A stretch of DNA of 64,000 nucleotides, from contig CANNZV010000342.1 in assembly GCA_947561585.1 (NCBI GenBank), forward strand, positions 62,001 through 126,000, read 5' to 3'. Shown in pieces: positions 1,236 through 59,364 of this stretch (position 1 is its first letter; the number at the start of each line of letters is the position of its first letter). This DNA comes from Caprella mutica (lineage: Eukaryota > Arthropoda > Malacostraca > Amphipoda > Caprellidae). The position numbers and the translations under genes are program-made. The notes below the pieces were generated by a model. That model did not search any database, was not told the DNA's origin, and worked only from the letters and a program-made list of their open reading frames with translations.

Positions 1236-1959
1236 ATCCAAATCTCGATTCATTTTTTATTATTCAGACAAAAATTAACATGGGAACATAGAATAATTAG
1301 AAATTTTAAGCCAATTAGAGGCTGTAACTGACATACTGAGAAACATTTGAATATTTTTATATAGATAGTAGCTAATTAGTGATGGGAAGATGAATCAGAA
1401 CATTTAAGGTCTTTCAAGTATCTGAATCAGGGATCAAAAATTTAAGGGAGAGTCCGACACATTAAACGGTTATTCCTATATTATACATATACTTAGGAAG
1501 TAGCAAATTGTACAAACTAACAATACAAGCATTTATAGGTTCTGGATTATATGGAAAATATCCTGTAATATCAAACTTAATTTGGAATTGTGTTTGGCAT
1601 TTTACATTTGATAAATGAGAGTATGCTTGTATGTTTCATTGAAGGGAACCATTTTCCCTAAAAAAACATTCTTCTTTTAAGTTGTGAATTTGAAGGGTTT
1701 TTTGTGAATGTATATGAAGTTTCTGAAGAAATTCTGTCTTTTGAAATTTGCACTAAACCAAAATAGTACATACCTACCAAAAACAGACTATTTTTGTAAA
1801 ATTACTATCAATCAAATCCATCTCCTTCGCATTTATCTCTACAAATCTATATTACATTTTAGGTCTAATTTTTAATCAAATTTTTTTATATCATTTATTT
1901 TCTGAAATAAAAAAGGAGAAAATTTTTGGAAAAAGGAAAAATAGATTCACTTGTTATTA
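1236..1959. other. AT-rich, no gene seen
   Basis: No coding region is supported. Bases about 1268-1312 carry a piece of the GGCTC/AAGCCAATT word family, with the core AACATGGGAACATAG that recurs in the small elements at 52-58 kb. Confidence 0.5.
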
Positions 1960-2420
1960 GTTATTTACAGGTGGTTCATCTTTTTTCACTCTTCAAAAGT
2001 CACCAGTATAATGGCGACTTTGGCCATACTTTGAAACATGCAAATCACTGGGCTCAGATTCTCAGTGGACTGTCACTGTAGCCTGAAGGTATTAGATCAT
2101 TTCAAAAATCTTTCCATCATTCATAATTCAAGTACTATTAAAAATTGAAAATCCAGGTCCTTTCTTGCCATTCTATTCGTGAGATACAATTGTTGACAAC
2201 AGGCTATTTTGAGCCCTTCTATGGCAAATGAAGAAAATATAAAATTTTCTCCTATTCTGCAATGTTATTTATTTTGAAGAGAATTAATAATAATTTGATC
2301 ATTTTGAAGATAAATTTAGCTTATATTGGGGATAGCTTGTGAGATAAATGGCGAGTTTATGAGTTGTAATCCAGTATGCCATACCATTTTACTTGGCTAA
2401 AACACTCACTAGCTAATTGT
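1960..2420. repeat. Fragments of the GGCGAGTTT / CCAAGTAA miniature element
   Basis: Near 2180-2395 the sequence repeats the layout of the 53.4-kb CCAAGTAA element: TTCTCCTATTCTGCAATG core, ATTTTGAAGA words, AAATGGCGAGTTTATGAG, and a TTTACTTGG end at about 2383-2395. The upstream part (AATGGCGACTTTGGCCATAC near 2010) has a relative at 3950-4020. No gene is seen. Confidence 0.55.
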
Positions 2421-2480: not shown

Positions 2481-3355
2481 CAGGGGTGGGCACACATTGT
2501 GTTTTTCAGTGCTGAAAGATGGAATCTCAGTGCCAATTTTCTTTTTGTTTTCTAAATTGATGGGGATACTGAATAATTATATAATGAGGTGGTAGATTTA
2601 ATTGAAGTACGTACATGTACAACGATACATATTTTGCACATAAATGTCGGTAGTAGATTTTTCATTTGCATTAAAGAATTAATAATTTCATAAATGATAT
2701 ATAATAATTTTTTTCTTTGTGTGTAAATTATTCACAATAAAAACAAAAATAAGCTATCTTGCATAAGTAATAATAAGTAACTCACAAATTCACAGGATAA
2801 ATTACTATGGCTACCTAACTTATTAAAAAAGATTGTATAAATATTTACCACAGTGTTTGTATGTCCCTAGACAAGCCGCATCCCAGACTGGAGGAACTGG
2901 GAAACTGTTCTCCAAGAAATCCTCTAATTTGGCTTTTGTTCTCAGTAAAATACATGTAAATATAGGACGGAATTAAGGATTGTTCACACAGAAAATGTTA
3001 AAAATGTCCCATATTCTGCAGACTGGGGACAAGCGTATGAAAGATATAAAATTAACTGATCTAGATAAAAAGAGACAGAGGTAAATAAATTAAACACTAG
3101 CACTATCGTAACAATGAACAAAAAATACCTTATTAACAGATAAAATTTACTATCAAAGTATCAAGGTCATTACAAATATACTGTTCTTCAATTAGTTGAC
3201 AATCCTCTTCTATATTATCCTTGTAATTTATAGAGCAGTCAGGGCTAAAAATTCTAAATTTTCTTTGGAAGAAAATAAAGCACTTTTTCCCTGGTGGGCA
3301 CGAGTGCCGCTCAGAGGGCCATAATAGCACTGAGTGCTGCATTTGCCCAACCCTG
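2481..3355. mobile_element. hAT-type non-autonomous element, 8-bp TSD
   Basis: The ends CAGGGGTGGGCAC and (reverse complement of the right end) CAGGGTTGGGCAAATG are typical of hAT transposons. The flanks TTTTAGAG (2473-2480) and TCTTAGAG (3356-3363) are an 8-base duplication with one mismatch. No transposase frame is present, so movement would need a hAT enzyme from elsewhere. A smaller CCAGTCTG-family element sits inside it. Confidence 0.75.
2890..3022. mobile_element. Small CCAGTCTG-family element nested in the hAT element
   Basis: The right end TTCTGCAGACTGG (3010-3022) and the left end CCAGACTGGAGGAACTGGG match the elements at 53483-53661 and 55703-55845. The core ACATGTAAATATAGG is near 2955. 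Flanks GACAAGCCGCAT and GACAAGCGTAT are similar but do not give a clean 8-base duplication. Confidence 0.6.
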
Positions 3356-3364
3356 TCTTAGAGT

Positions 3365-3711
3365 CTTGCAAACTACCTTTCAGCCAATTTTGAGCTAAAA
3401 TTTCAGAAAATTTTTAGGCAAAGCAAAGCCAATTTTGGCTCATTTTTGTTTTTTGGATATTTCAAGCAATTTGGGAAACATAAGAACCAGTCTGTAGTAG
3501 TGCATAAAATCCCATTGACCATGTTGTAATGTGTGGCAGGAAAGTCGCCAGTTTAGTGAGAAAATGGATCCAGGTCGCCACATTTAAGATACTTTAAAAG
3601 AGAAATTCGGCTTCCTAGTTTAGATTTTACACTTGGAAACATCCTTATACTTCATGCCTGATCTATGTGCATCTCTTGAGACTATTTTAGGAGTGATTTA
3701 CTTGTTATTTA
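3365..3711. other. Repeat debris, no gene
   Basis: Bases 3375-3480 contain AGCCAATTTTGAGC / AATTTTGGCTC words of the GGCTC element family. The remainder (AAGTCGCCAG near 3542) resembles sequence at 1990-2040 and hosts the insertion at 3712. Confidence 0.45.
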
Positions 3712-3937
3712 CCAGTCTGTATTTGGTGCACAAAATTCCACTGACTTTTTGAAAAAGCTGAAAAAATCCACCATAAATTTCCAGTAATTTGACTGATCCA
3801 CCAACATTTTACCCATTTTTCCACCAAAAATTAATGGTAACATAGGAATACGAATAAATAGCCAAAAATCCACCGACTTTGCCAGAATATTATTATCAAA
3901 GGGTACCAGTGACACCATACCACGAAATACAGACTGG
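3712..3937. mobile_element. CCACC-word miniature element, perfect 8-bp TSD
   Basis: The ends are CCAGTCTGTATTTGGTG and CACGAAATACAGACTGG. GTTATTTA is duplicated exactly at 3704-3711 and 3938-3945. The arms are built of repeated CCACC-led words, and the core is ATTAATGGTAACATAGGAAT near 3829-3850. It is non-coding. The 8-bp duplication points to hAT-type mobilisation. Close relatives lie at 52525-53276, 52645-53141, 53680-53913, 55160-55380 and 55513-55860. Confidence 0.85.
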
Positions 3938-3945
3938 GTTATTTA

Positions 3946-5222
3946 CAGGTTTTCTAACTTATTTAACCTCACAAAAGTCTCCAATATACTGGTGACTTTG
4001 TCCATACTTTAAAACATGGCCCATTGACTTTATCAATAAGCTGTAAAAATCCACCAACATACTTTCATAGTTTCATTGATTTGGCTGATCCACAAATATT
4101 TTCCCAATTTAGTTTTAGCCTTTAGGCTATCGCTATTTAGCAAGTACCTAGCACCTGCCACCCCAGTCCTGGCCCACCTGAAAATGAAAAAAAGCTAAAA
4201 TCTACCGACTTTACTAGAATATTATTCTCTATGTGGGAAAATATTCCACCGACTTGTCGGATGAATTTACCATGAAATACAGTCTGGCATTAGAATCAAA
4301 TAGCAAATTTAAACTAGTAGGTATAATAAGTATAATTAGACTCGTAGACTGTAAATTACAGTCTATGAGACTGAGTCTATAAATATTTACATATCTATGA
4401 ATTGACTTAGGAAATGTATACTGTAAGCCAATTAAGTTAAAAATTAAGTTAAAAACATGGGAAAAGGAACATAGATGAATGAGGTCATGAGTCATGAATG
4501 CAGAATGATGAGGAATCAAAATTGTTAAGAATTTAAAAAAAGAGTTGGTTCCGTATAAGTTAAACATAACATATATACAAATATTCATATTGTTCTATAA
4601 ACAGTCCAATAATTTACTTCCACCTATAGAATACATTTTCGAGGGTTATCGTGCAGTGACTCACTCAAGCCTTCTCAGATCGACAGATCCCAGCATAAGT
4701 GCCAGCCTGAGTTGCCAGCGTGACACGGACACCCCACAAAATAATAAGCGAAGCGTGACTGAAAACATTACATGTTCCGAACGTGTTTCACAAATCACAA
4801 TAACGCTACGAATGCTAAAAATGTTAAGAAACACATAAAATTAGGCTTGAGTTAAGTTACAATTAATGGAAAATTCCACACAGGATATAATGACTGTATC
4901 CTTTTTCCACATATTCCATCATTTAAAAATAGATATATGATTTAACAATTAGATGTTAATTTTAATTGGTTTCAATTGAAATGTGGAAATAATATCTAAT
5001 AATTCGTAACAAACCCAATATATAACTGCAAAAATTATTACAGGCTATTAAAATTATTTTATATTTATAGCTAGAGCGCAAGACCACAACTCTCCAAATT
5101 CCCTCACTTCTACTCTGTTAAAAATATACTTGAATATGATATATTTAAACACCAAAACGGCGAAATAATCTTACAGATAGCGGTAAATTATTGTGTTAAA
5201 ACTTGAAATCTCCAGATATATA
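3946..5222. other. Repeat fragments, no gene
   Basis: A partial CCACC-word element lies at about 4024-4287 (CCACCGACTTGTCGG and ATACAGTCTGG at its end), and a GGCTC-family scrap with ACATGGGAAAAGG lies near 4400-4470. Open frames here are short and lack family features. Confidence 0.45.
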
Positions 5223-5990: not shown

Positions 5991-6379
5991 TCATTTTAAA
6001 TAAATGTAAAGAGAACTAATCATAATTACAATTATGATTTGTAATAATGATTTTATGAAAACAAAAATATGACCTTACGCAAATTTGCGAAGGTAATAAC
6101 AGATGATCTATGAAATGACATATTTTTCTGACGGATAATATATTACTGGTTCATAATTCATAAGAGTAGCTATTTTGGTAATTGATTGGGGGGTTACCTC
6201 TTTAGTTATTTATTATTAGTTTTTCATATCTGACTCCATTTTACTTTATCTCCAATTAATTACATTTTGGCTAAACTGATAATTGCTTGGATTGAAATGA
6301 AATTACGAGTTAGATAATCAAGACATTTATTCAAATAAATCACATCACCTGGTAATTAGCATATGAGATTGGACTTCAG

Positions 6380-11781: not shown

Positions 11782-12006
11782 TATATTGATTGGCAAATAC
11801 GTAATAAATTATTGTCATAATGATAATTTTTAAAGTGCTAATTTTAACAACATAAAAAAAATATTTAATTGAAATAGTATCCCCAGCAAAATATTTCTTT
11901 TATAGAAAATGTTTTAGACAGAAACTTAAACAAAATTATCGAAAGGGAGCTAATTTGAATAAAAAATCTATATATAGAGTTAATTACTAATTAGTGTGCC
12001 AAAATA
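11782..12006. other. AT-rich spacer with left boundary of array block
   Basis: No gene is seen. GTTAATTACTAAT at 11979-11991 reappears exactly at 12781-12793, enclosing the two tandem arrays. Confidence 0.5.
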
Positions 12007-12606
12007 CAGTGACTCTTTTCTCTGATAGTACATCATCACAGTGACTCTTTTCTGTGATAGTACATCATCACAGTGACTCTTTTCTCTGATAGTACATCAT
12101 CACAGTGACTCTTTTCTGTGATAGTACATCATCACAGTGACTCTTTTCTCTGATAGTACATCATCACAGTGACTCTTTTCTCTGATAGTACATCATCACA
12201 GTGACTCTTTTCTCTGATAGTACATAATCACAGTGACTCTTTTCTCTGATAGTACATCATCACAGTGACTCTTTTCTCTGATAGTACATCATCACAGTGA
12301 CTCTTTTCTCTGATAGTACATCATCACAGTGACTCTTTTCTTTGATAGTACATCATCACAGTGACTCTTTTCTCTGATAGTACATCATCACAGTGACTCT
12401 TTTCTCTGATAGTACATCACCACAGTGACTCTTTTCTCTGATAGTACATCATCACAGTGACTCTTTTCTCTGATAGTACATCATCACAGTGACTCTTTTC
12501 TCTGATAGTACATCATCACAGTGACCCTTTTCTCTGATAGTACATCATCACAGTGACTCTTTTCTCTGATAGTACATCATCACAGTGACTCTTTTCTCTG
12601 ATAGTA
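12007..12606. repeat. 32-bp minisatellite, about 18-19 copies
   Basis: The unit begins CAGTGACTCTTTTCTCTGAT and continues AGTACATCATCA. Copies are nearly identical. The same unit in reverse orientation forms the array at about 48897-49330, and solo copies occur in the MITE at 13724-13968 and at 50020-50080. Confidence 0.95.
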
Positions 12607-12614
12607 CCTCAACA

Positions 12615-36700: not shown

Positions 36701-39700
36701 CACTCTCTATCTGTGACTGGGAATAATTTATTGTTTACTGTTCTCTATCAACATTTACATGTGCTGAGGTTTGATGAGTCAGCTTAAGTTACTTCAGATT
36801 ATAAACTATATGAACTTACTGGTGTACACTTGACGAGTCATCACTATAATAGGGAAATATTAAATGAATTAATAATATGCTAATTAATATTCATTCATGT
36901 TAATTTATGCCATGTATTAATATTAATGTATGTAATATTCATTTATATTAATTTATGTCATATATTTATATTAATTTATGTCATGTATTTATATTAATTT
37001 ATGTCATGTATTTATATTAATTTATATAATATATTTATATAATTATTTATATTAATTTATGTCATATAATTATATTGATTTATGTCATATATTTATATTA
37101 ATTTATGTCATACATTTATATTAATATATATCGTATATTAGTATTCATTTTTGTCATGTATTAATATTAATTATCTATAATTAGTAATAGCTATATCTAT
37201 ATTTCTATTAATGAAATTATAATTTCAATATCACCACTGAACAAAAATTATTTTTTCAATTTGAAAATTTATAGCTATTTGTCGATGATTCAATATCAAA
37301 AGGAATTAAACTAATTTTCACACTCAATTGTTTATTTTTCGTTATTTAATAAAATCATCTTTATTAGAATATTAATCGTTTCCAATAAAGTGTACAGTGA
37401 AGAGTTAAAACAACCACCAATAGTTGTAAATAAAGTGCACAGTGAAGAGTTAAAACAACCACCAATAGTTGTAAATAAAGTGCACAGTGAAGAGTTAAAA
37501 CAACCACCAATAGTTGTAAATAAAGTGCACAGTGAAGAGTTAAAACAACCACCAATAGTTGTAAATAAAGTGCACAGTGAAGAGTTAAAACAACCACCAA
37601 TAGTTGTAAATAAAGTGCACCGTGAAGAGTTAAAACAACCACCAATAGTTGTAAATAAAGTGCACAGTGAAGGGTTAAAACAACCACCAATAGTTGTAAA
37701 TAAAGTGCACAGTGAAGGGTTAAAACAACCACCAATAGTTGTAAATAAAGTGCACCGTGAAGAGTTAAAACAACCACCAATAGTTGTAAATAAAGTGCAC
37801 AGTGAAGGATTAAAACAACCACCAATAGTAGTAAATAAAGTGCACAGTGAAGAGTTAAAACAACCACCAATAGTTGTAAATAAAGTGCACAGTGAAGGAT
37901 TAAAACAACCATCAATAGTAGTAAATAAAGTGCACAGTGAAGAGTTAAAACAACCACCAATAGTTGTAAATAAAGTGCACAGTGAAGGGTTAAAACAACC
38001 ACCAATAGTTGTAAATAAAGTGCACAGTGAAGGATTAAAACAACCATCAATAGTAGTAAATAAAGTGCACAGTGAAGAGTTAAAACAACCACCAATAGTT
38101 GTAAATAAAGTGCACAGTGAAGAGTTAAAACAACCACCTATAGTTATAAATAAAGTGCACAGTGAAGGGTTAAAACAACCACCTATAGTTGTAAATAAAG
38201 TGCACAGTGAAGGGTTAAAACAACCACCAATAGTAGTAAATAAAGTGCACAGTGAAGTTTAAAACAACCATCAATAGTAGTAAATAAAGTGCACAGTGAA
38301 GAGTTAAAACAACCACCAATAGTTGTAAATAAAGTGCACAGTGAAGAGTTAAAACAACCACCTATAGTTATAAATAAAGTGCACAGTGAAGGGTTAAAAC
38401 AACAACCAATAGCTGTAAATAAAGTGGACAGTGAAGAGTTAAAACAACCACCAATAGTTGTGAATAAAGTGCACAGAGAAGGGTTAAAAACAGCCACCAT
38501 TAGTTGTAAATAAAGTGCACAGTGAAGAGTTAAAACAATCACCATTAGTTGTAATTAAAGTCACAGAGAAGGGTTAAAACAAACACCAATAGTTGTAAAT
38601 AAAGTGCACAGTGAAGGGTTAAAACAAAACAACAGCCAGTAGTTGTAAATAAAGTGCACAGTGAAGGGTTAAAACAACCACCAATAGTTGTAAATAAAGT
38701 GCACAGTGAACGGGTTACACTGTAAGCGTTTTCTGATCGTCAGTAGGTTTCTGCCTAATTAATACTGGGTCTAAACTATGTTTTTGAGGCATTGTTCGGG
38801 AGGAATTAAACACCTACCAGTATGCCTCTGAAATAATAAACGGGACACTAATTTAGCTTCCATTTCACTGCACCAAATTTTGGAATACCTAAATAGAAAA
38901 ATAATGAGAATTTTTTTTATATAACTATAACTATTCAAGGATATTCAATTATATTGAAAAATATAAATTGTGCAAAGTAACAACCAATTCAAGCCTTTCT
39001 AAAATATATATATATATATTATATATAAATAATAACATAATTGATATCTGTATTATTCCTGATATAAAATAATATATTTCGAAAATGCATCGGTAAACAG
39101 TAATAGCAATTGAAAATAAGAATATTAAACACAAAAATTACCGAAAGCTATCGTAGTCGCATGAAAAATCAAACTCATTTGAACGCTGAAGTTGTCCTGA
39201 CGACTTCATACTTATTCTGACGAATAAATTGCTGCAACTGTAACCACTCTCATTGGAAAGTATGAATTTGACTCTTCCATTAGCTATTAGTAGATCACTG
39301 ATAAATTGAACTATTATAAACGATGTTAATTTAGGATTTACTATTATTGATGCTCTGTCTGAAATATTATTTATTTAGAGTACGTACATATACGTAATTT
39401 AAAATGGATATGCTTTTCATTAACCTAGTTCTTTTAGTATGATCGATATTTAATTTGATGCTAATTAATGAAGGGAAGAATTTTATTACTAATTTTACAA
39501 GTAACGTAAACAGTTCATTAAACAAATTGATTATTTCTATATGGCAAATCGCAACCCACGTAAATAAATAATCCCTCGGAAGTAATTACCACACTGCCAT
39601 GTTATTGAAATGAACTTAAATATTGGGAATATGTGTAAATATTTGAAGAATATGAATAATTTCATAAAATAAATAAAGTGAAGAATAGGAAAAATAACGA

Positions 39701-40635
39701 AAGAACAAACTAAGATTTTTTTATGGTTTAGTGTGACGAATAAAGACTTAAGTGGATATTAATAAAGTATTCATTATCACAGTAAATAACCAAATTACTA
39801 TCAATAATGAATAAATTACTGATTTCTGTGTTTTTCAGGTTACAGAGATCAAGATGATGAAGAGAAATTCATCTCTGGCTTCTCAGTATCGAAGGCTCGG
39901 CTTTTGAAAAAGCCGCACTATAGCGATGTGAATGCAGTGATACGAACAATGCACTACCGCGAGTTCTTGGAAGTGGCTAAAACTCAAGCATTTGAAGGAT
40001 CAAAGATAACTTCCAAATATAAAACAGCACTTCCTAAGAGAGGACAATTCGTATTTTTTCGCGCCACAAGAGAAAAAGATAGTATGAAGAATGATTTCTA
40101 CGGTAACGTTGGGTTATCCATCGATATTCTTCAACTGCTAAAAGCTGATCCTACCATTAACATGTTCCATGTTGATTGCGCTTATTTCGTTTGTTCAACG
40201 GCGTCTAGAATTCTCTTGACCCGTAAGAAATCCTTCGAAGGATGTCCTAAACTTGATTTGAATCGTCTGGAAGAAGGAATGCCGATCATACTGAGAGACG
40301 GTGTTCTTGCAGCAGCTGATCGGCATACACACAGAAAGAGGAACCGAAATGGAAAAAGACTCCGAAAGAATTACAGACACTCTGTTGAATTCGTATTTGA
40401 CCTGGAGACTATTGACACAACTTGGATCTACAATCAGTGTAAAGTTTTCGCTGTAGACCACTACATGGCCAATCTATTGGATGCTGATGACTGTTTTGGA
40501 AGACACCAGTGTCTGATCTACAATACCAGAAATAAAACCTGCCCATCTCCATGGACCAGGGAGGTTACCGAGAACAAGCTTGTGAATCATCAGAAAATAC
40601 TTGAAATATACTTTGTAAAAACAGAGTCAGAATAA
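30785..40635 (+). CDS. Gene A: unrecognised FFRA/SASRIL family protein, 2 exons
   Basis: Exon 1 is 30785-30824 (MSPVATSSAYEDA, donor GTAAGT) and exon 2 is 39839-40635 (acceptor TTTTTCAG). The phases join to give DAGYRDQDDEEKF and a 278-residue product. I do not recognise the family. Gene A shares with genes B and C, in order: a GQFVFFRA block, NMFHVDCAYF, then STASRILLTRKK, GMPIILRDGV, VEFVFDLETI..TWIY, and a terminal HQCLIYNT..CPSPWT block with paired cysteines. There are no membrane segments and no clear signal peptide, so it is probably intracellular. The 9-kb intron carries a foldback element and five tandem arrays. Exon 1 is inferred from splice sites and phase. A candidate AATAAA lies at 41008-41013. 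Confidence 0.7.
31219..31312. mobile_element. Compact 94-bp GGGTAAGTTCC MITE
   Basis: The left arm GGGTAAGTTCCGAATTATCG with CATTTTCGATCAT faces GTGGAACTTTTCGATAATTC and AGAACTTAACCC. This is the shortest complete member here, essentially two terminal repeats back to back. Confidence 0.8.
32390..32519. mobile_element. Truncated right end of the AAGTACTT hAT-type element
   Basis: AAGTACTT words end in GCCCATCTCTGCC, matching the 49380-49542 end of the complete element at 48343-49542. The left half is missing. Confidence 0.75.
33323..33530. mobile_element. GGGTAAGTTCC MITE in the foldback spacer
   Basis: The left end GGGTAAGTTCCGTGTTATCG follows TA. The right end is degraded (GAACTTAGTATGTATACCC). 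Confidence 0.6.
34642..35239. other. Gene A intron, nothing recognised
   Basis: AT-rich with no open frame or repeat structure of note. Confidence 0.35.
35240..35545. repeat. 71-bp tandem repeat, about 4 copies
   Basis: The unit includes GATTAATATGAGGGATAATA, GGAGTAAATTTTGATTAATA and TGAGATTAATTTTTTCAAAA. The period is 71 bases (35315, 35386, 35457). Confidence 0.9.
35744..35815. mobile_element. 72-bp perfect-looking hairpin MITE
   Basis: GGGTAAATTCCTGGTTCACG and its complement CGTGAACTAGGAATTTACC are separated by a short TATTTCATTTAG loop. It resembles two terminal repeats without an interior. Confidence 0.7.
36184..36705. repeat. 18-bp minisatellite GTGTCCGAGTACTGTGAG, ~29 copies
   Basis: The copies are nearly identical, with CCGAG/CAGAG and ACTG/ATTG/AGTG variants. 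They lie in gene A's intron. Confidence 0.95.
36890..37150. repeat. ~21-bp repeat ATATTAATTTATGTCATGTA
   Basis: About ten AT-rich, variable copies lie between the 18-bp and 45-bp arrays. Confidence 0.8.
37385..38715. repeat. 45-bp minisatellite, ~29 copies, open on both strands
   Basis: The unit is GTGCACAGTGAAGAGTTAAA, then ACAACCACCAATAGTTGTAA, then ATAAA. Because 45 is a multiple of three and the unit lacks stops, long frames arise on both strands (plus: VHSEELKQPPIVVNK repeats, 290 aa; minus: VVLTLHCALYLQLL repeats, 257 aa). Each frame ends when a copy loses or gains bases, and indels are frequent after 38255. It lies in gene A's intron, so a coding role is unlikely but not excluded. Confidence 0.9.
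38716..39838. other. 3' part of gene A intron, no gene
   Basis: AT-rich sequence, including an AT dinucleotide run near 39004-39025. The TTTTTCAG acceptor ends at 39838. Confidence 0.4.
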
Positions 40636-42236: not shown

Positions 42237-44046
42237 ATGTCGATAACGACACGTAAGTGTACTTAAAATAAAACAGTTCATTCAGAATGAATAATGATGT
42301 GTGTTTATTGCTGAAGTTTACTTTCTTGCCACTCTACTTACATCACATCTAATTTTTAGTACAGATATAATAAAATTGGAAATTAGTCCTGATATTTAAT
42401 GAAATAGAAAATATGTTCTGAATAATAATATTCAGTTTACTCGAAAGGTAACCTTATATTATCACTATGCAATAAAATTAACTTCGGCATTTCATTAAGT
42501 GTCAGATAAAACCATAGACCGACAATTGGGCCCCAAGACAATTCAGCCTATACATATAAAATATTATAGCAGACACAATGAAGAAGTGTTAGTTTGTTAT
42601 TACAGTAGCAATGGTATTCAATTAAGTTTTTACAGTAGACTTTGATGAAAACAGACTCGGATACTTCAAGTAGTATTAAGAGCTTGCTTTTGTATTTTGC
42701 ATACATATTTTTTACTTAAAGGTTTGACGTTTGGTCTGATTTGCTCGCACATACTTCACTTTTTTAGTGTAACCTTGATTTTCAGTATTTATACATCCTT
42801 TTATTTTGCTATTGATAATGAGTGGAGCTGTGCATGGTTCTGTGTCAACTTCAATTGTATTAGTGTTACGAGGCAGTTCTTCTACGACATGGTTGTAGAT
42901 ACTCCAGACACCTGGTTTGAAACGAGAATTTCGTATATTTTTTTGAATGGCATTCTTATTCACGAAATAAAGCATTAAATAAAAGTTATATGTATACATT
43001 GAATTCAAAATCTTGATTCTTCGGATTGAAGCTGATCTATGGTATATTGCTCAATTGTATTGGGGCCCAATTGTCCATGGCCCAACTGTCGGTGCTCCGA
43101 TAAAACATATCCATTCACTTAAAATTGTAATAATTATTGGATCCAATTTAAATTATTTTATTCGATTTAGTTTATTTTCTAGATTCTAATGCAATTATTT
43201 TCTTTTCCAGCTATGATCTACTACCCCATCTGTCCAGTGAAAAAATTCAAGTGCAAGAAAATATGCAAAGGAATGATCCTGACCAACCCAAACTACGTTC
43301 CTATTGTTGGTGTCTGTCGAACAATTCATAGTGGTCAGTTTCTCCAATCTTGCAAACTCGGACATTTGGTCCCTCTCACGGACACAGAAAAATATAAGGA
43401 TACCATGAAGTTGCCCCCCGGAAAGTTTATGTTCTTCCGTGCAGAATCGATTGCGTCAAGAAATACTGATGATACCCACGATTGGCTTGGAAACATAAAG
43501 ATTAAAATAAATTTCAACCGTTTGATGAATAACTTCAATGGCATCAGATTTTTTAACATCGATTATGTGAACTTCAACACTTCCAGCGCATCGAGAATTT
43601 TGGTGACAAGAAAGAAAACTTATCACGATTTTCCGGAGATTCAATTGGGTGATTTGAGAATAGGTGATCCCATCATTTTCAAAAATGGAATAGCCTACTA
43701 CGCGATCTCTCATGCTGATACTTCGAGTCGTGGAAAACACGCCGTTCATATTGTATTCGATACCGAGACAATTCCTGCAAAATGGATTTGGTGGAACAGC
43801 GAAAGTGAAGTTGTGCAACATGTTAATGTAAACGTAAAAAACGATGCGGGAAGGTATAAACAGCATCAGTGCAATCATTACAACACAGAAAGAAAGCAGG
43901 ATTGTCCTTCACCTTGGAGTGTACAGCGGACACACAATGAGTTGCTCCGTTATGGAGTTACAATTCGTCCGGTAGCCACTCGTGATGTTAATTGGCATTA
44001 TTCCAATGTGGAATTCACTTCTGATGAGGAAAACCATCACAGTTGA
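42237..44046 (+). CDS. Gene B: FFRA/SASRIL family protein, 2 exons
   Basis: Exon 1 is 42237-42252 (MSITT, donor GTAAGT) and exon 2 is 43211-44046 (acceptor CTTTTCCAG), together 283 residues. The protein runs MIYYPICPVKKFKCKKICKG, NPNYVPIVGVCRTIH, GKFMFFRAES, DWLGNIKIKINFNRL, RFFNIDYVNFNTSSAS, RILVTRKKTYHDFP, GDPIIFKNGIAYYA, HIVFDTETIPAKWIW, and ends HQCNHYNTERKQDCPSPWS. It is very close to gene C and clearly but distantly related to gene A. I know no domain that fits. The reading frame stays open about 30 codons upstream of the chosen ATG (ELQPPDLLEIRDTIEKYK), so the true start may lie in an earlier exon. Confidence 0.75.
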
Positions 44047-47196: not shown

Positions 47197-48185
47197 ATGT
47201 CGATAATTACACGTACGTGTACTAAAATATCATTTATTAATTTAAGAAATAAATTTTAAGTAACTGAAATTAGAAGAGAACATCTAATTTGGTTTATTTT
47301 ATTTTTAAGTATTCTCTATTTTATTATTTTTATTCCATTATTTTCTTGCCAGCTTTGATCTACTACCCCATCTGTCCTGTAAAGAAATTCACGTGCATGA
47401 AAATACGCAAGGGAATGATCCTGACCAACCCAAACTATGTTCCTATTGTTGGAGTCTGCCGAACAATCCATTTTGGGGAATTTCTCCAATCTTGCAAACT
47501 CGGACAATTGGTCCCTCTCACGAACACCGAAAAATATAAAGATACCATGAAGTTGCCTCCCGGAAAGTTTATAATCTTCCGTGCAGAATCGATTGCGTCA
47601 AGAAATACTGATGAGACCCACGATTGGTTTGGAAACATTAAGATTAGATTAAATTTAAACCGTTTGTTAAGTAACTTCAATGGCATCAGATTTTTTAACA
47701 TCGATTATGTGAACTTCAACACTTCCAGCGCATCGAGAATTTTGGTGACAAGAAAGAAAACTTATCACGATTTTCCGGAGATTCAATTAAGTGATTTGAG
47801 AGTAGGTGATCCCATCATTTTCAAAAATGGAATAGCCTACTACGCGATCTCTCATGCTGATAATTCGGATCGTGGAAAACACGCCGTTCATATTGTCTTC
47901 GATATGGAGACAATTCCTGCAAAATGGATTTGGTTGAACAGCGAAAGTGCAGTTGTGCGTCATGACAGTGTAAATGTAAAAAGTGATACTGATATTAGAA
48001 AGTATAAACAGCATCAGTGTAATTACTACAATACAGAACTAAAGCAAGATTGTCCTTCTCCTTGGACTGTACAGGAGACACACAACCAGTTGCTCCGTTA
48101 TGGAGTTACAATTCATCCACAAAGCGCTCGTGATGTTCATTGGCATTATTCCAATGAAGAATGCACTTCTATAGAGGAAATATAA
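47197..48185 (+). CDS. Gene C: FFRA/SASRIL family protein, recent duplicate of B
   Basis: Exon 1 is 47197-47212 (MSIIT, donor GTACGT) and exon 2 is 47353-48185 (acceptor TTCTTGCCAG), giving 282 residues. It differs from gene B by scattered substitutions, mostly in the last 80 residues, with no frame damage, so both seem to be under coding constraint. Conserved blocks are GKFIIFRAES, RFFNIDYVNFNTSSAS, RILVTRKKTYHDFP, GDPIIFKNGIAYYA and HQCNYYNT..CPSPWT. The intron is only 140 bases, against 958 in gene B. As in gene B, the frame is open upstream of the ATG. AATAAA overlaps the stop codon (48184-48189) and repeats at 48188. Function unknown. Confidence 0.75.
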
Positions 48186-48342: not shown

Positions 48343-49542
48343 CAGAGATGGGCAGGAAAGTACTTCCCAAGTACCAAGTAAAAGTACTAAGTAACAAGTA
48401 AGTACTTCAAGTACTACTTGAAGTACTTTCTAAAAAGTACTTTGAATAATTACTTAGAAGTACTTTTTACAAGTACTTGTTACTTTCCAAGTAAAAAGTA
48501 CTTTGCAAAGTACATTTTTTTCCTTTCAGTCAAGAGATTTTAAAAGATTAGTTCTAAAATCTCTACAAAATTAATTCTTTTTCTCATCAAAACTGTATTT
48601 ACAGCAACTGGATAAAAACTAGAGTTTGAAGAGGTCCAACATGTTAGAAAATTGTTTGTCAAGCAGTAAAATTGAAAACTTTGTCAAACAGTAGAATCGA
48701 AAACTAAGACTGTAAGACATTGTATACTTTTATGTGACGGTGAATATTTATATATTCTGACATACAATCATGTATAGAGACTATGAGTTATATTGACCAA
48801 TTTAAGTACATTGAATATAATTATTTTGTGATACCTAGATATAACAACCAATATTTACCAAACACATTGATGAATTATAAGCGTGTGGACGTGTACAGTG
48901 AGTCACTGTGATGATGTACTATCAGAGAAAAGAGTCACTGTGATGATGTACTATCAGAGAAAAGAGTCACTGTGATGATGTACTATCAGAGAAAAGAGTC
49001 ACTGTGATGATGTACTATCAGAGAAAAGAGTCACTGTTATGATGTACTATCAGAGAAAAGAGTCACTGTGATGATGTACTATCAGAGAAAAGAGTCACTG
49101 TGATGATGGACTATCAGAGAAAAGAGTCACTGTGATGATGGACTATCAGAGAAAAGAGTCACTGTAATGATGTACTATCAGAGAAAAGAGTCAGTGTGAT
49201 GATGTACTATCAGAGAAAAGAGTCACTGTGATGATGTACTATCAGAGAAAAGAGTCACTGTGATGATGTACTATCAGAGAAAAGAGTCACTGTGATGATG
49301 TACTATCAGAGAAAAGAGTCACTGAGAAGATGTACTGTCAGAGTTAACAGTATGAATTATTAGTTTTTAAATTGTATAGTAAATGTACTTGGTACTTGAA
49401 AGTACTTTAAAAAGTACTTGGTACTTGTACTTTGAAAGTACTTTTTTATTTGAGTACTTGGGCAACTACTTCAAGTACATTGATTTACGAGTACTTGTAC
49501 TTAGTACTTAAGTACTTTCGATGTACTTTTCGCCCATCTCTG
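48343..49542. mobile_element. 1.2-kb hAT-type element, perfect 8-bp TSD, carries satellite
   Basis: The ends CAGAGATGGGC and GCCCATCTCTG are typical hAT termini. CAAGTAAG is duplicated exactly at 48335-48342 and 49543-49550. Both sub-terminal regions are dense in AAGTACTT words, which may be transposase binding sites. The interior holds the 32-bp array. There is no transposase frame. A truncated relative lies at 32390-32519. Confidence 0.9.
48897..49330. repeat. 32-bp minisatellite (reverse of 12007-12606), ~13 copies
   Basis: The unit is AGTCACTGTGATGATGTACT, then ATCAGAGAAAAG, the reverse complement of the 12-kb array. It sits wholly inside the hAT-type element. Confidence 0.95.
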
Positions 49543-52011: not shown

Positions 52012-55000
52012 ATGACTAGCTCAATTAAACAAGGAATTATAATAAGTGGAGAAGCCTCAGAATCTGACGAAGAAATTTACTCTGATCCTCTCATCAAACG
52101 TAAGTAAATTAAGATTTAAGAAATACGTTATTTAGAAGTATATGAAGTCCCTGAATTAGGTATAAATTACTATTTAGAATAGCATATTTCAATATTTTCA
52201 TTAATTTTACAACGAGCTTACGATTTAGTATTTAGGTATGAACACTTAGTCACTTAACTAGAAATAAATAAATGAAAATAAATTAGTCTGTAAAACAGAG
52301 TTCTGACAGTACTCTGTTGTATGAATAATGAAGGCTGAACTTCTGAAGCTATCATGCTATGATGCTATGAGCTTAGAAGTTAGACTAGCATGCACTGTGA
52401 TTATTTTAGTAGATATGCAACATTTAAATGTAATTTCGGTTCAGAATGTTTCAGAGACTTAGTCTGAAAAGTAGGTAGCTATCTTCAGACCCAGAGTTTT
52501 TTTGCAGAAATTGGGATTTATGCGCCAATCTGTATTTCGTGGTAAATTCCACCGACATGTCGGTGAAATTTTTCCCTCTTTGAATATAATATTCTGGCAA
52601 AGTCGGTGGATTTTTAGCTATTTTAGCCTATTTATTCCTATGTTCCAGGTTGACGATTGTATTTGGTGGTAAATTCCAATGATTACGGAATGATATATCG
52701 GGAGATATTCAATTTCTCTAATAAAAAAAATCCTGCAATGTCGGAGGATATTTAGCTATTAATTCCTATATTGCCATTAATTTTTGGAGGGGAAACTAGA
52801 AAATGTTGGAGGACTAAACAAATTGATGAAAAATGTTGGCAGCTTTTTCTCAGATTTTTGCCAAGTAAAATTGTATGTCTCATAAACTCACCATTTGTCT
52901 CTCCAGCTCTCTCCAAAATTCAACAAATTCTCTCTAAAATGATCAAATTATCATTAATTCTCTCCAAAATAACATTGTAGCATAGGAGAAAAATAGAAAA
53001 AACTCGCCATTTGCAATTGAAGGGCTCAAAATAACTGTCACAAACTCGCCATTAAAATGGCGAGTTTGGACATGCTTTATTACTTGGGATTTTTGAAAAA
53101 GTCAGAGGAGTTCAGTGCACTGTGCACCAAATACAAACTGGCCTATGTTACCATTAATTTTCGGTGGATAAATTGGGAAAATAATAGTGGATCAGCCAAA
53201 TTACTGGAAATTTATGGTGGATTTTTACAGCCTTTTCAAAAAGTCAGTTGGATTTTGTGCACCAAATACAGACTGGTTTATGTGCAGCAAATAACACGGG
53301 AACATAGGAATTAAATAGAACTTGGGCACAGGATTAATCCACAAATCCTGCTCTACTTTTCAGACTGGTTAGCCAAGTAATAAAGCATGTCCAAACTCGC
53401 CATTTTAATGGCGAGTTTGTGACAGTTATTTTGAGCACTTCAAATGCAAATGGCGAGTTTTATCTATTTTTCTCCTATGCTACCAGTCTGCAGAAACTGG
53501 TAAAGTGTTCGTAGAGATCTCTTATTCTGTTCGTAGCAAAATCAATGTAAATATAGGGATTAATTCAGAAGTGTTCGTAGCAAAATTAATGTAAATATAG
53601 GAATTAATTCCAAATTGTTCGGAGAGAATATCCCAAATATCTCACATATTCTGCAGACTGGCTATGCTACAATGTTATTCCAGTCTGTATTTAGTGGTAA
53701 ATTCCACCGACATGTCGGTGGAATTTTTTCCCTTTCAAAATAATATTCTGGCAAAGTCGTTGGATTTTCAACTATTTATTCATGTTACCATTAACTTTTG
53801 GTGGATAAATTGGGAAAATGTTGGTGGATCAGTCAAACTACTGGAAATTAATGGTGGATTTTTTCAGCTTTTTGAAAAAGTCAGTGGGATTTTTTGCACC
53901 AAATACAGACTGGATGTTATTTTGGAGAGAATTTATGAAAATATGATCATTTTGGAGAGAATTTGTTGAATATTGGAGAGAGCTGGAGAGACAAATGGCA
54001 AGTTTATGAGACATACTATTTTACTTGGCTGGTTAGAAGTTGAGAAGGGCCGCTCTTGAGAAGTTGAGAGGGCCGCAATTAAAAATTAAAGGGCCGCAAT
54101 TTACCTGCGTGACCCTAATCCTATGTATGTCAGTTAAAAAAGGCAAAAGCCAATTAACACATTTCCTGTGATTGCCAGATGCACAATAATGCTCCCAGCC
54201 TCCCACTGCGATTCCATACATATCCAGTCTGCAGAATGTGTCTCTTCTCCCGCAGAGATTAATTTGAGAGACAGTAACTCTCTGACTCTCAGCAGCAGAT
54301 TCAGAATCTCCCTCAGCTAAATTAATGGTAACATAGGAAATAATTCTAAATCTCCTGCAGAGATCTCCAATTTCTAAAATTCAATCAAAAACTCCTGCAG
54401 AGAGTCTTGGAAAAATGTTCCATATTCTGCAGACTGGATACATATGAATTATTACCAGTGTCTGTATGGCTGTCATCATGAGAGGTTGTGTTATGCTCTT
54501 TTTCATATCATTGATTGATACATAGTACAACAAAATGGTGACCATCTGTAGATATCTTTGCATATAATTTTTTATTTATTTAATGTATAAAAAGACTGGG
54601 GACCCACTGGTGGGTCCCTTTGCAGCACAGGACAAGTCAATGGGACCCACCGCCCACTGGTGGGTCCCTTTGCAGGAAATGTGTTAATTCTCTTAGAATT
54701 CAAAAAGTCAAAAACTCAGATATGTCTAATTGGCTTAAAAATTTAAATTAATTCCTGTGTTCCCATGTTAATTTTGGCTCAAAATCTTCTAAAAATGAGC
54801 CAAATTGGCTTGGCTCAAAATTTTAGTGAAATTTTGGCTCAAAAATTGGCATGGGGTAAAGACCTGAAATATACCCTGAAATGACCTGAAAACATTTTAA
54901 ATGCCTGCCATTTAAATACCACTGCATGTATCGATTATCAAACATGTTTCAAATCGAGAAGGAGTCCCTGGTAACATTTCCTGACAGTTTCGCTGAAAAT

Positions 55001-58000
55001 TATCTTCCATTTTTTGAAAAATTGTGCCCTGAACAGACTGTATATACCAATTTTGGTACAAAAACAAAGAAGGGATGAAGACGCCTGTTATATAAATACC
55101 ACTGCTTGTATCCATTATTAAACATGATTTTTCTTTCAAGGAGACCCTGGCAACACCTCGTAAAAAATCCCACTGACTTTTTCAAAAAGCTGAAAAAATG
55201 ATTAAAAATTCACCAACAATTTGGCTGATCCTCCAGCATTTTCCCAATTTTTCCACTGAAAATTAATGGTAACATAGAAATAAACAGCTAAAAAAACCAC
55301 CAACTTTGCCAGAATTTTATTTTCAAAAAGAAAAAATTCCGCCAACAAGTCGGTGGAATTTACCAGGAAATACAGTCTTAAACAATCATGAAGTGTGCTG
55401 AACATCAAACTAGCGGATACAACAAACTACATAACAGCCATTTATTTACGTTGAGACCATTGATAGAAAGTACAGTGGTACGCCATATTGTGGTGCACCG
55501 CTCAGCTTTTAGATACTGTTGGTATTTGGTGCACAAGTTCCCACCAACAATTTGGCTGATCCACCCAACATTTTCCCAATTTAGCCACCAAAAATTAATG
55601 ATAACATAGAAATAAATAGCTAAAAATCCACTGATTTTGCTAGAATTATTTTCTAAAAGAAAAAATTCCATTGACAAGTCCGTAGAATTTACCATGAAAT
55701 ACCCAGTCTGCAGAATATGGGAAGTATTTGGGATATGCTCTCTGAACAATTTTGAATTAATTCTTATATTTACATTAATTTTGCTACAAACAGAATAAGA
55801 GATCTCTACAAACACTTTAGGTGACTATCAGTTTCTGCAGACTGGTGAAATACAGACTGGCAGTTTAGTTATACTGTAGCTATAGTGTATACCAAGGTAT
55901 ATTAACTACAAGGTAGAGTATTGCGCAGGTTCATATCAAGATGATTACAGTTTTGTTGTGAAAGACGCTGGCTGGTGTGCGGCCGTGTGCCCCATGATAA
56001 TTATTTTTACATAGAAACAAGGTCTGTTATTCATTCTTTTTAGAATAAAATGAATTTCAACTTGTTTTTTTGGACTAAACTGGCTGTATTCAGCATTGTG
56101 AAAACTTTTCATATATTTTTTAGTAAGGTTTAATAGGGAAAAACGTATTGTTTTTCTTCAAAGTACGTTTATGTAAGAGCTGTCGATCCTGTCTCTTCTT
56201 ATCCTGTCTATTTCTTCCTAATTCCTACATTTTTAGAAAACCTAAATAATTTAATCAGAACAATTACACTTTTTTCATTGCATCCGCACACAGCACAAAC
56301 AACCACGGCAAAAATTCTTATTTACAAATAACTAATTAAGTAGCTGTATCTATTATTGCAGGGCCAAACGGCCGTGTGTTCGTATGTGCGTATTTGTTTA
56401 TGCGCAGAGGAGTCTAAAATTCGTATCAAGGCGTAGCATGCCTTGTTAAGTTAATATACCTTAGTGTATACATTATACATACATGGTGTGACGGTTAGTG
56501 CAGTGGCCAGTAACTGTGAGGGCACAGTGTGGCGTGTGTGACAGTGACACTATAAGAGCTTCACTTATTGTCTTATACAGAAACAATCCAATCTAAAAAA
56601 AGGTCTCCTCAGTCTCTCCGACAGTCAGACCGAGGATTTTTTTACAGAAATTGGGATTTGGTCGCAGAAAATAAAAATTTAAAATGGACGTAGGATTAAT
56701 CCTGAAATCCTGTTATACTTTTCAGACTGGGAAATAATGAAATAATTTGGCTGCCAATCTGCAAAGTGTGGAAAATCTGTCTTCATGATTTTATTTTGAA
56801 GATAATTTGTCTCCAAAGATTTTCAAATCTGTCTCCAAAATGACTAGAATTCTGCTAAATCTCTCCAATTAATTCATGTAAACATAGGAATTAATTAGGA
56901 AAGTGTCTCCAAAATCTTACAAAGACATATTTTCCCTCAAAATATGTCTCCAAAGATCTTCGTAATCGGTGACAGGCGTATGTTAATGTTGTGAGTTCCG
57001 AATAATTGGATGACAACATGACTTTGTTTTCACATGTTCGATTTTGTTCCAATACTATTGAAACTGGTAAAGTGTTTGCAGAAATCTATTTATGGTTTAT
57101 CTGATCATCATGTGATCATTGTAATGTAACTTTTAGAAATCAATAGAAATTTTTTCACAAAGAATTTACTAAATATCTCCCACATTCTGCAGAATGGATT
57201 TGATCATAATCATCATCATATAAGAAAATATATACTATTGCTAATAATTAGTATGTAACTCTTTATTTTAATTGGTAAGTATCAATAATTCTAATGTTAT
57301 AGAATATAGAGTGAGTCACTTTAATCCAGGGTTGTTAAAAAACAATTATTTTTTTGAAAAAAACATAAACTTATGGTCTTTTGAAAAATCAAATAAACCA
57401 TGGTTTATTTGATTTTTATAGAGAATAATTTAATAAATGTGCATAAAGATGCCGATTGGTTCATAACTGATCACTATCCATGGTTAACAGTACAAAACAT
57501 CATTCATATTTTGATAAATTATGAAATAAAATGATTTATTTGAGATAAATTATGAAAAAATTAATTAATGCAGATGCTATGTAACATTTTACTACCAATT
57601 CATAAATAATTCTTAGCTGCTAGTTTACTTTAATAAGCTCATAAACATTTAAAACTCAAGTCTTAATTAACATAGCTAGATTCAAATATTTCTTGAATTT
57701 TTATATTTCCATTGGTTTACATTTCAAATGTAGATGTTCATAGTTTCAAACTAAAATATAACATATTAGCTAATGAATATCACAGTGTGACTCAAGACTC
57801 TATTTTATTAGCTCTTCACTAAATAACTATGTAAAATATCTTTATAAAATGATAATATCACAATATGGTGAGGAGAAAACCCTGTCCATATTTCTATTTT
57901 CCTTTTAGACTTGATGTTTTCCATTAAAAAATTACACTACTAAAATTAACTAATTGTATTTTTAAATAGCTGCATGATATATTTATTGAAATGATTTAAC

Positions 58001-59364
58001 AAAACTATTTAAAGTGATTTTAGAGCTGCAAATTTAAAAAAATAAAATAAACCATAAAAACCAAATTAACCATGTTTTTTTTAGCTTGGTTTAAACAAAT
58101 TTGTTTAAACCAAACCACCCTGCTTTAATAAGTTTATAGTTATAGCCAATTAATTGGCTTAACATTTTGAAATAACTTGTGAGTCCTGTGTTTCAGAATC
58201 CATATTAATTTTGGCTTTAAAATTGGCAGCCTTGGTTCAGATTTTTGTGAATTTAGGCTCAAAAATTGGCTTACAGTTTGACAGCCTCTGAAACATGGCA
58301 TGATTGCACTAAGATTCCTCACTGTCTGTTCTTGCAGAAAAATGCATGCAACTGGCGAGTTAAAATGTCAACTTCATGGATACCAATTAAAATAAGTTAA
58401 ATGTGTCAACAAAAAGCAGTAAAGTAATTAAAAATATGGGATATTTTTTACCTTTTCTGTTCAAACAATCCTTAATTTCATCCTGCATTTTAGTATTTGT
58501 GTATTTTACTGAGAATAAGAGTCAAATTGGAAGACTTTTGAGAATTGATAACATTCATCATTTTTCAGCAGTCTGCTGTCTATCAAAAAATAGACTATTA
58601 ATTTACATGATATTGAAGAAGAATAAAAGAAGATCTACTTGTAAGTTGTTTAAACTGTCTTTAAAATTACAAACAGTTTTACTTTTTGTGAACTGGCCTA
58701 ATATCTATTACCAAAAATGTAAACTAAATATTTTGGTCTTTGACTAATTTCATCCTTTTGATACAAGCTTGAAAAAAAGCTTCTCTAAAATTTCAGATAT
58801 AGGTAATTCTTCTAATTTAAGATTATTAGTTTCCTAATAACAAGCCAATTCATTCAATCAAAGAAAATACTTTTGTATATCTTTATACTCAAATTACTGT
58901 CTTTTTCAGAAGGAAACTGTAATGCCACTACACCATCTAGCACTACCAATACCATTAGAGAGGAAGAATTGAAGAAGTCTTCTATCCCTATCAAAAAGTC
59001 TCCAAAATATATGCAAGATTCTTTGTTGCAAATCAAATTAAGTGAGTTGATGAATTGCATAAATTTATATTTTTATCGTGTTTCAATTCATTGACCAAAC
59101 TTCTCAATTTTCATTATTACTATTTACTGATTTTCTTATTTTACAGGGGAAAGCAAGAATAAGCTGAAGGAGAGTGTCCATGCTACATATCTGCTACCAT
59201 TAGTAAATTCCAAACTCAAACTAAATGACATCCAAAAAAATTCTAATCAGTTGTCCTCAGTATTAGAAAATACAAAATCATCACTGATACACATTGAAAC
59301 TAACCTAAAAAATCTCTCCATGAATATAGACAGTCTTCCATCAAATTTAGTATCTTTGAAATAG
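52012..59364 (+). CDS. BLOC1S3: BLOC-1 complex subunit 3 homologue, 3 exons
   Basis: Exons are 52012-52099, 58910-59041 and 59147-59364, with GT-AG introns (6.8 kb and 105 bases) and matching phases; the product is 145 residues. The acidic N-terminal motif IISGEASESDEEIYSDPL matches the GEA(T/A)ETDSE motif of BLOC1S3. The C-terminal coiled-coil block QDSLLQIKLRESKNKL and the following VHATYLLPLV match the SLLQLRLAESQARL region. BLOC-1 acts on endosomes in making lysosome-related organelles. Intron 1 is filled with nested miniature transposons. The stop lies 20 bases before the RBM48 start, so the two may share one transcript. Confidence 0.8.
52645..53141. mobile_element. Second CCACC-word element inserted in the core of the first
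   Basis: The ends CCAGGTTGACGATTGTATTT and CCAAATACAAACTGG are aged. CCTATGTT is duplicated exactly at 52637-52644 and 53142-53149, and this site is the host element's ATAGG core read in reverse. The older-looking body contains the next insertion. Confidence 0.75.
52861..53087. mobile_element. CTCTCC-word element (P4), innermost
   Basis: The ends are CCAAGTAA and TTACTTGG. GATTTTTG is duplicated exactly at 52853-52860 and 53088-53095. The arms consist of TTCTCTCCAAAAT words and ACTCGCCATT / AATGGCGAGT. The core ATTGTAGCATAGGAG is near 52973-52987. Confidence 0.85.
53483..53661. mobile_element. GTTCGTAG-word element (P2) in the P4 core
   Basis: The ends are CCAGTCTGCAGAAACTGG and ATATTCTGCAGACTGG. 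CTATGCTA is duplicated exactly at 53475-53482 and 53662-53669. The core unit TGTTCGTAGCAAAAT.. AATGTAAATATAGG is present twice in tandem. Confidence 0.9.
53680..53913. mobile_element. CCACC-word element in the P4 core
   Basis: The ends are CCAGTCTGTATTTAGTGG and CACCAAATACAGACTGG. ATGTTATT is duplicated exactly at 53672-53679 and 53914-53921. Confidence 0.9.
54224..54437. mobile_element. CTCCTGCAGAGA-word element (P3)
   Basis: The ends are CCAGTCTGCAGAATGTG and ATATTCTGCAGACTGG. ATACATAT is duplicated exactly at 54216-54223 and 54438-54445. The core ATTAATGGTAACATAGGAAA is at about 54321-54340. The arms use CTCCTGCAGAGA words. Confidence 0.9.
54590..54870. repeat. CCCACTGGTGGG hairpins and a GGCTC-word element (P5)
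   Basis: GACCCACTGGTGGGTCCCTT occurs twice (54601 and 54652 regions). From about 54730 to 54850 the GGCTCAAAATTTT words surround the core ATTAATTCCTGTGTTCCCAT. The ends of P5 are not fixed. Confidence 0.55.
54900..55155. repeat. Direct repeat of ~60 bp, two copies ~180 bp apart
   Basis: ATAAATACCACTGC(A/T)TGTATC, AAACATG and the following GAG(T/A)CCCTGG pieces occur near 54912-54970 and 55092-55150. Confidence 0.6.
55160..55380. mobile_element. CCACC-word element, degraded
   Basis: CCCACTGACTTTTTCAAAAA, AAAATTAATGGTAACATAG and AAATACAGTCTTA keep the order of the family. The left end is lost. Confidence 0.65.
55513..55860. mobile_element. CCACC-word element hosting a P2-type insertion
   Basis: It runs from GGTATTTGGTGCACAAG to TACAGACTGG, with core AAAATTAATGATAACATAG. 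The element at 55703-55845 lies just inside its right end. Confidence 0.7.
55703..55845. mobile_element. P2-type element, perfect 8-bp TSD
   Basis: The ends are CCAGTCTGCAGAATATGGG and GTTTCTGCAGACTGG. TGAAATAC is duplicated exactly at 55695-55702 and 55846-55853. Confidence 0.9.
55879..56475. mobile_element. 600-bp foldback, GTGTATACCAAGGTATATTA ends
   Basis: The left arm GTGTATACCAAGGTATATTA faces TTAATATACCTTAGTGTATA, and CTACAAGG pairs with CCTTGTTA. Inner motifs GCGGCCGTGTG and ACGGCCGTGTG repeat directly. No gene is seen. Confidence 0.65.
56624..57200. repeat. P7 copy and GTCTCC-word element (P6), no gene
   Basis: A P7 copy spans about 56624-56728. A GTCTCCAAAAT-word element with core CATGTAAACATAGGAATTAA spans about 56745-56985. 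A GAGTTCCGAATAATTGGATG MITE-like end follows, and a TTCTGCAGA end lies near 57186. Confidence 0.6.
57327..58122. mobile_element. hAT-type element, CAGGGTTGTT ends, 8-bp TSD
   Basis: CAGGGTTGTTAAAAAACAAT faces AACCAAACCACCCTG. CTTTAATC (57319-57326) and CTTTAATA (58123-58130) are the duplication with one change. The inner arms AAATAAACCATGGTTTATTT and AAATAAACCATAAAAACC also pair. It is non-coding. Confidence 0.75.
58140..58909. other. GGCTC-word element and end of BLOC1S3 intron 1
   Basis: Bases 58145-58290 are a P5-type copy (ATTGGCTTAA, ATCCATATTAATTTTGGC). The 114-aa frame at 58403 lies in the intron and has no domain. Confidence 0.5.

Follow-up and report, generated by a model that had tools for sequence, protein, structure and literature searches.

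Several described transposon systems resemble, in part, the short elements treated here. hAT transposons with subterminal repeats (Herves and Hermes, as well as Tol2 and Ac/Ds) share with them 8-bp target-site duplications (TSDs) and a short repeated subterminal motif that varies between elements. In the available parts of the published accounts, the Herves transposase binds to repeats of an 8-bp motif (CG/AATTCAT), and transposase-bound regions vary in sequence among hAT elements (PMC3143072); Hermes harbors precisely placed subterminal repeats (PMC10368747), and in Kat1 the subterminal repeats are important for activity (PMC4763223). On our own reading of the available part of the Hermes account, the repeats lie mostly on one strand along the element (PMC10368747), similar to the arrangement described below. 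P-element miniature inverted-repeat transposable elements (MITEs) of Anopheles gambiae are also alike in their 8-bp TSDs and in occurring as several families per genome; as far as the available part of their description goes, they keep P-element ends around an unrelated center (PMC1562414). The elements considered here occur in a 64,000-nucleotide stretch of the amphipod Caprella mutica (contig CANNZV010000342.1, positions 62,001 to 126,000 of the forward strand; hereafter, the window) and elsewhere in the same genome. They form ten families that share a central core and carry short repeated words at fixed distances from it, the words mostly differing between families.

There are several salient differences from these systems. 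Unlike in hAT elements, the array of words spans the whole 139–260-bp element around the shared core, the ten families keep the spacing while the word varies, and the ends read CCA. In contrast to P-element MITEs, the center is the shared part. En/Spm (CACTA) elements also carry a repeated transposase-binding motif in subterminal arrays but have a 3-bp TSD and CACTA ends; we know of no core shared among their families with different motifs. No description of a family in which the core is common and the words vary was found in the open literature searched, most papers being judged from their listing. Exact element patterns had no match in viral and genome contigs, nor had one P1 copy in phage records, these collections being non-animal.

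A Common Core and Words That Vary between Families

The assembly holding the window (GCA_947561585.1) comprises 903,207,152 bases (903 Mb) in 7200 contigs. The exact core, ACATAGGAATTAAT, occurs 15,193 times in it (7742 and 7451 on the two strands), a high copy number as for MITEs, and its reversed-pattern control occurs 18 times (10 and 8). Loci were read around 97 of 100 listed core places, as were two stretches adjoining the window and ten of 10 kb taken arbitrarily. With the window, the sequence searched came to 347 kb, in which a core profile gave 214 anchors. When 208 distinct core regions were clustered, 20 clusters of at least two members and 71 singletons resulted; the largest cluster mixed P1 and P1T, and the ten families were therefore delimited by hand from the 214 core sites. 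The consensuses were built from 41 hand-picked elements out of 62 full ones plus two window copies, with seven copies for P1, three for P1T, two for P7, and a single window copy for P6. Copies of P2 with 44-bp duplications, some P3 and P9 copies, and other copies were excluded.

A profile built from the window's own copies finds 16 core sites at E < 1e-3, all within 52–57 kb and 2.9–3.9 kb; another, at 1.27 kb, is weaker (E 0.0049). The preliminary description had claimed that the types share a core beyond chance. This is borne out by the genome counts and by the alignment of eight types anchored on the core, in which the 25 core columns have a mean pairwise identity of 0.70 vs 0.275 expected, and the words one of 0.34–0.36. 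When the genomic copies are collected and their consensuses aligned on the core, with positions given relative to the core anchor, eleven columns (−6, −5, −1, +2 to +7, +11, and +12) are invariant across all ten families. For eight representatives with 16 terminal bases trimmed, the best local alignment reaches p ≤ 0.01 against 300 dinucleotide shuffles in 21 of 28 pairs, and those 21 alignments are same-strand and take in the core. In six of the 28 pairs, each involving P4 or P10, p is > 0.05. Separately, the cores in L013, L028, L036, L042, and L053 contain small internal duplications that by appearance resemble excision footprints (e.g., GTAACA-CC-GTAACATAG).

A scan of the window for terminal inverted repeats (TIRs) and TSDs detected CCAGTCTG or CCAAGTAA ends with 8-bp duplications, several of the elements being nested in one another; five CCAGTCTG elements have exact ends and exact 8-bp TSDs, and 200 shuffled termini gave none. 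Across the window and fetched loci, 65 of the 214 anchors, representing 62 distinct elements, combine CC..GG termini with end repeats matching at 7 or more of 10 positions and TSDs matching at 7 or more of 8, in line with the 8-bp duplications noted earlier. The termini start with CCA in 61 of the 62, the remaining one (CCTATGTT) being probably spurious. Short consensuses (139–260 bp), TIRs agreeing over ~8–18 bp, and a fixed-length TSD are all features of MITEs. An initial division into four types with common ends and a differing P4 has given way to three end classes: CCAGTCTG-like, CCAAGTAA, and CCATGTTT-like. Also with CCA ends is a 2,341-bp element at L042:1676-4016, possibly a larger relative, which has 18-bp perfect terminal repeats (CCACACTGGAATCTTTGG), a TSD of TCCCGCAG, and no open reading frame (ORF) longer than 80 aa, and which sits in a P3 word.

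The words are CCACC in P1, CCTCC in P1T, GTTCGTAG in P2, CTCCCGCAG in P3, GAGCCAA/AAGCCAA in P5, GTCTCC in P6, and GTTCTC/GTTCGC in P10. P4 and P9 have a variant right word: CTCTCC on the left is paired with CTCGCC in P4 and with GTCGCC, taken from the printed flank, in P9. Type-specific words had been recognized in the preliminary description. Its list requires amendment for P7, in which the word on both sides is GGGCGC and TTGGGATT is found only once, and for P4, in which CTCTCC stands as the left word only. In the window copies, with distances counted from the first A of ACATAGG, each type whose word is clear (P7 being unclear at that stage) has words near −22 and +22, and further ones lie near −43/−52, −72/−84, and +61/+66. 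In the family consensuses, the near-left word is at −19 to −23 and the near-right word at +21 to +25, 43–44 bp apart in 10 of 10. A far-right word is present at +64 to +68 in P1, P4, P5, and P6 (+64 in the last). Behind it comes a word in inverted orientation, at +78/79 in P1, P4, and P5 and at +86 in P6. Whether left or right of the core, most words point in one direction.

Left and right words agree within families, with a sum of 63 that 0 of 100,000 permutations reached, although this figure is optimistic, as the families are related, some share a word, and words and windows were picked after looking. Together with the matched positions, this agreement upholds the earlier impression of one template in which the word is changed throughout each element. 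No AT-rich stretch lies solely 3′ of the words, the value being 0.82 on either side. No RNA family reaches its gathering threshold in the window; of five element pieces folded as RNA, P1 and P2 give z below −3, and the P2 fold pairs the element's own end repeats.

Parallel Word Difference between P1 and P1T

The copy at 52645-53141 had been taken as an inner P1 copy and is instead a member of a separate family, P1T, with the word CCTCC. The P1 and P1T consensuses are 79% identical (186 of 236 aligned bases). An A in P1 corresponds to T in P1T at four of the seven CCAC sites (giving CCTC); of the 80 A columns elsewhere, 9 show this change (Fisher p 0.0085). For the window P1T copy alone, the counts are five of seven sites vs 10 of 82 (p 0.0012), one of the five lying in a badly aligned stretch. 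Each site keeps its own flanks in P1 and P1T while the word differs at four homologous sites. With a pattern that admits A or T alone, both flanking words could be read in 24 copies out of the 214 anchors, of which 17 are A/A, 7 are T/T, and none is mixed. P9/P6 and P2/P10 look like further sister pairs of this kind, judging from their sequences. The two window P2 copies also differ in their word (GTTCGTAG vs GTTTGTAG), which may be simple CpG decay.

Nested Islands and the Core as a Possible Landing Site

Among the 12 stretches not selected for cores, only L067 has any (16 matches), and thus the elements seem to form islands. They cover 4,738 of the 100,000 bases in the ten stretches taken arbitrarily, L067 accounting for 4,706, and 4,462 of the 64,000 bases of the window. 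The preliminary description placed the window's elements at 52461..57200; they are present there, and more copies occur at 1.2–4.3 kb and 58.15–58.54 kb.

From the left of the principal range, a P7 element (52458..53368, + strand) with a decayed left end, for which no TSD was found, is interrupted by a P1 element (52525..53276, − strand, TSD TTTATGCG/TTTATGTG; TIR/TSD scan and de-nesting). The core of this P1 copy is in turn interrupted by the P1T element (52645..53141, −, TSD CCTATGTT), which has more copies in other loci. A P4 element with CCAAGTAA ends, TSD GATTTTTG, and the words CTCTCC on the left and CTCGCC on the right lies at 52861..53087 (+). A second P4 element (53373..54028, −, TSD CTGGTTAG) has its core region interrupted by P2 and P1. 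The P2 element (53483..53661, +), with the word GTTCGTAG and a 44-bp tandem repeat of word and core, has a TSD, CTATGCTA, that derives from the P4 core; the P1 element (53680..53913, −, TSD ATGTTATT; scan and de-nesting) has a partly deleted core. A P3 element with the word CTCC(C/T)GCAG follows at 54224..54437 (+, TSD ATACATAT; TIR/TSD scan and consensus), and a P5 element with approximate bounds at 54690..54900 (−; de-nesting and consensus). Between elements, at 54590-54680, a GGGACCCACTGGTGGGTCCC-like inverted repeat occurs twice.

Further right, de-nesting placed a P1 copy without its left end at 55158..55376 (+) and, with the scan, a P1 copy at 55525..55860 (+) with P2 inserted near its right end; the scan places a P2 element with TSD TGAAATAC at 55703..55845 (−). 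A P7 element at 56588..56730 (+, TSD GAAACAAT/GAAATAAT; scan and de-nesting) lacks its core, so that this copy and the P1 copy at 53680 have TSDs with a missing or damaged core. De-nesting also recovered a P6 element at 56754..56985 (+, right end approximate), whose shared core lies at 56869..56895 (+) in the core profile, and a decayed P2 copy at 57055..57197 (+).

Outside this range, the core profile marks a P5 fragment with core at 1258..1319 (+), and library matches mark a decayed P4-like copy at 1954..2396 (−) and P5-like plus P10-like sequence at 58151..58537 (no strand assigned). A P10 element with GTTCTC/GTTCAC is found at 2880..3026 (+; de-nesting and consensus). The left part of a P5 copy (3382..3486, +) is cut at the core by a P1 copy (3487..4287, +, TSD CATAAGAA/CATTAGAA), which hosts P8. 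The latter (3519..4019, no strand assigned) has CCATGTT ends, a TSD of CCCATTGA, and no clear core, and hosts a P1 copy, a P1 element with TSD GTTATTTA being located by the TIR/TSD scan at 3712..3937 (+).

In the strict set of 64 insertions from all loci, 34 lie across another library element, 16 beside one, and 14 neither; 11 of 17 in singly chosen loci lie across another element, and 47 of 87 in a relaxed set lie inside one of the ten consensuses, all nesting counts being inflated since the loci were selected for cores. Of the window's nine nested insertions, three begin no more than 2 bp from the core anchor (p 0.001). In the strict set, 3 of the 16 insertions near a core fall within 4 bp, which is no clear excess. 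In the relaxed set, the TSD starts at −3 to +2 in 7 of 47 (expected 1.3, p 0.0001), a range chosen afterwards; wider ranges give 9 of 47 both at −12 to +7 (expected 4.3, p 0.027) and at −14 to +14 (expected 6.3, p 0.17). L012 and L016 have the same TSD and layout, and thus perhaps six of the seven core insertions are independent. Insertions also pile up at +97, with three look-alike copies (L006, L029, and L039) among them. Genome-wide, the junctions of TAACATAG and AACATAGG with a following CCAGTCTG occur 46 and 16 times, respectively, and their reversed-pattern controls 0 times. The core center thus seems to be a favored landing site of sibling elements, a secondary feature; insertions of siblings there would contribute to the growth of nested islands.

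Further features of the window were also recorded. A 32-bp tandem unit is shared, in opposite orientation and 36 kb apart, by 12006-12611 and 48900-49343 (18.9 and 13.9 copies). A 45-bp tandem array of 29 copies at 37384-38710 has reading frames open on both strands. Three similar-looking ORFs without a Pfam match lie at 39823-40635, 43183-44046, and 47274-48185, and an RBM48 match, together with three Destabilase matches among the 84 window ORF pieces, points to an animal host.

Origin of the Words and of Their Mobility

The elements probably constitute MITE families (short cut-and-paste DNA transposons that are non-autonomous) descended from one ancestral short element and moved by transposases making 8-bp duplications, with the words as putative transposase sites. 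More specifically, and tentatively (a probability of roughly 0.35), the elements may carry a two-part code. The core would be read by a common machinery and serve as a sibling landing site, and the words would be family addresses, rewritten at most sites by successive transposase lineages; the result would be a series of DNA-binding specificities with at least one sister pair, P1/P1T, caught mid-change. It is proposed that the words act as subterminal repeats to which the mobilizing transposase attaches through its DNA-binding finger, as in hAT elements such as Herves and Hermes. In a lineage under a transposase of different specificity, better-matched copies would have moved more, and the word sites would have shifted in parallel by independent substitutions, with the scaffold of spacing, core, and CCA ends kept. 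Since motif binding is known in hAT elements, we infer that such shifts took place under selection for mobility. The core was most likely retained as an internal site of the same transposition complex, and its center, as a preferred target of siblings, would also have aided nesting.

Several observations weigh against this proposal. The P1 sites at −73 and +65 do not follow the P1T change and differ otherwise, one of the seven CCAC sites adjoins the end repeat outside any word, and the P1/P1T comparison gives a difference whose direction is unfixed. The permutation figure is optimistic, as stated above, and the words are non-unique: P4 and P9 both have CTCTCC on the left, the window P6 has CTCTCC once, and P2 and P10 both have GTTC. 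Helical phasing of the words over distinct spacings is not significant (p 0.12). No autonomous partner was found among the loci examined. For L069 and L070, two of the at least 57 genome matches to the hAT dimerization domain PF05699 (150 of 297 candidates scored), the three end types and the core were not found in 3.4-kb stretches that are possibly short of the ends. The terminal consensus of hAT elements is C/T A A/G N G, which the CCA ends of the CCAGTCTG, CCAAGTAA, and CCATGTTT types do not fit. The nTnnnnAn TSD pattern of the Ac/hobo group is fitted weakly, by 8 of 49 distinct exact TSDs, in which the base counts are T2 21, A7 18, C1 15, and G8 21.

The mobilizing transposase could belong to more than one superfamily. 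An 8-bp TSD fits both hAT and P, and a repeated subterminal motif is present at both ends, as in the hAT superfamily. Among 84 window ORF pieces of at least 70 aa, scanned with those starting in the 37.2–38.8-kb tandem array set aside, the 18 families listed include none of the hAT, BED, P, or THAP kind, and the DDE_1/DDE_3 matches come from other elements, at 9–10.5 and 24–25 kb; the short elements thus agree with MITEs in lacking transposase coding. Nine of 92 ORFs in other loci were scanned for domains. L069 and L070 encode long hAT frames (629 aa in L070), and in L070 a 24-bp satellite (ATATCGAATTACACCTACCTAATC-like) lies on either side of the transposase gene, at 1-400 and 3000-3401. That the elements are instead MITEs of the P superfamily, or of another superfamily with 8-bp TSDs, with THAP-type fingers reading the words, is unlikely but the best placed of the alternatives. 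L025 encodes a 659-aa P-like transposase frame (5891-7867, − strand; PF21787, PF21788, PF12017, and PF12596), around which no convincing matching ends were found within the stretch at hand. The available part of the A. gambiae study reports both 8-bp TSDs and MITE relatives for P elements, yet gives their TIRs as 27–31 bp (PMC1562414), vs the ~8–18 bp of terminal agreement here.

The preliminary description attributed the uniform arms to conversion or slippage. Slippage is evident locally: P2 and P3 hold tandem 44-bp units of word plus core (53528-53621 in the window P2), and of 16 pairs of exact cores lying close together on one strand, 12 are spaced 44 bp. A general model in which slippage, unequal exchange, or conversion duplicates this unit in tandem, spreads the word, and leaves extra cores to decay would also suit the 43–44-bp near-word spacing of all ten families, about the size of the duplicating unit. 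In 12 comparisons across P1, P1T, P4, P5, P6, and P9, the inter-word stretches outside the core nevertheless do not resemble the core unit (p 0.15–1.0), and site-specific flanks are kept in P1 and P1T while the word differs. Slippage is thus regarded as a local process rather than the source of element-wide word identity, and as a general cause it is less likely than a P-type origin.

The words could also be host-factor binding sites or regulatory motifs, changed by selection or drift on the host factors. Consistent with this, words reach the middle of the element rather than being confined to its ends, and related families such as P4 and P9 have some in common. All families, however, share a single nucleus and its host factors, yet their words differ; dependence on a transposase would fit this better, leaving a host-factor origin improbable. 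Equally improbable is a core shared through recombination or repeated insertion into one target rather than whole-element descent, as, despite the apparent preference for the core center, word spacing beyond the core is likewise kept between families and some arms are alignable (e.g., P4 and P6 over ~100 bp, with a score of 28 that was matched by 0 of 300 shuffles).

The joint change of a transposase's DNA specificity and of its scattered binding sites is hard to observe; here it is traceable site by site. In thousands of copies belonging to about ten sister families, one scaffold has been kept and the word is variable. If the words are transposase sites, these families would constitute a natural series of specificities, open to simple binding assays.

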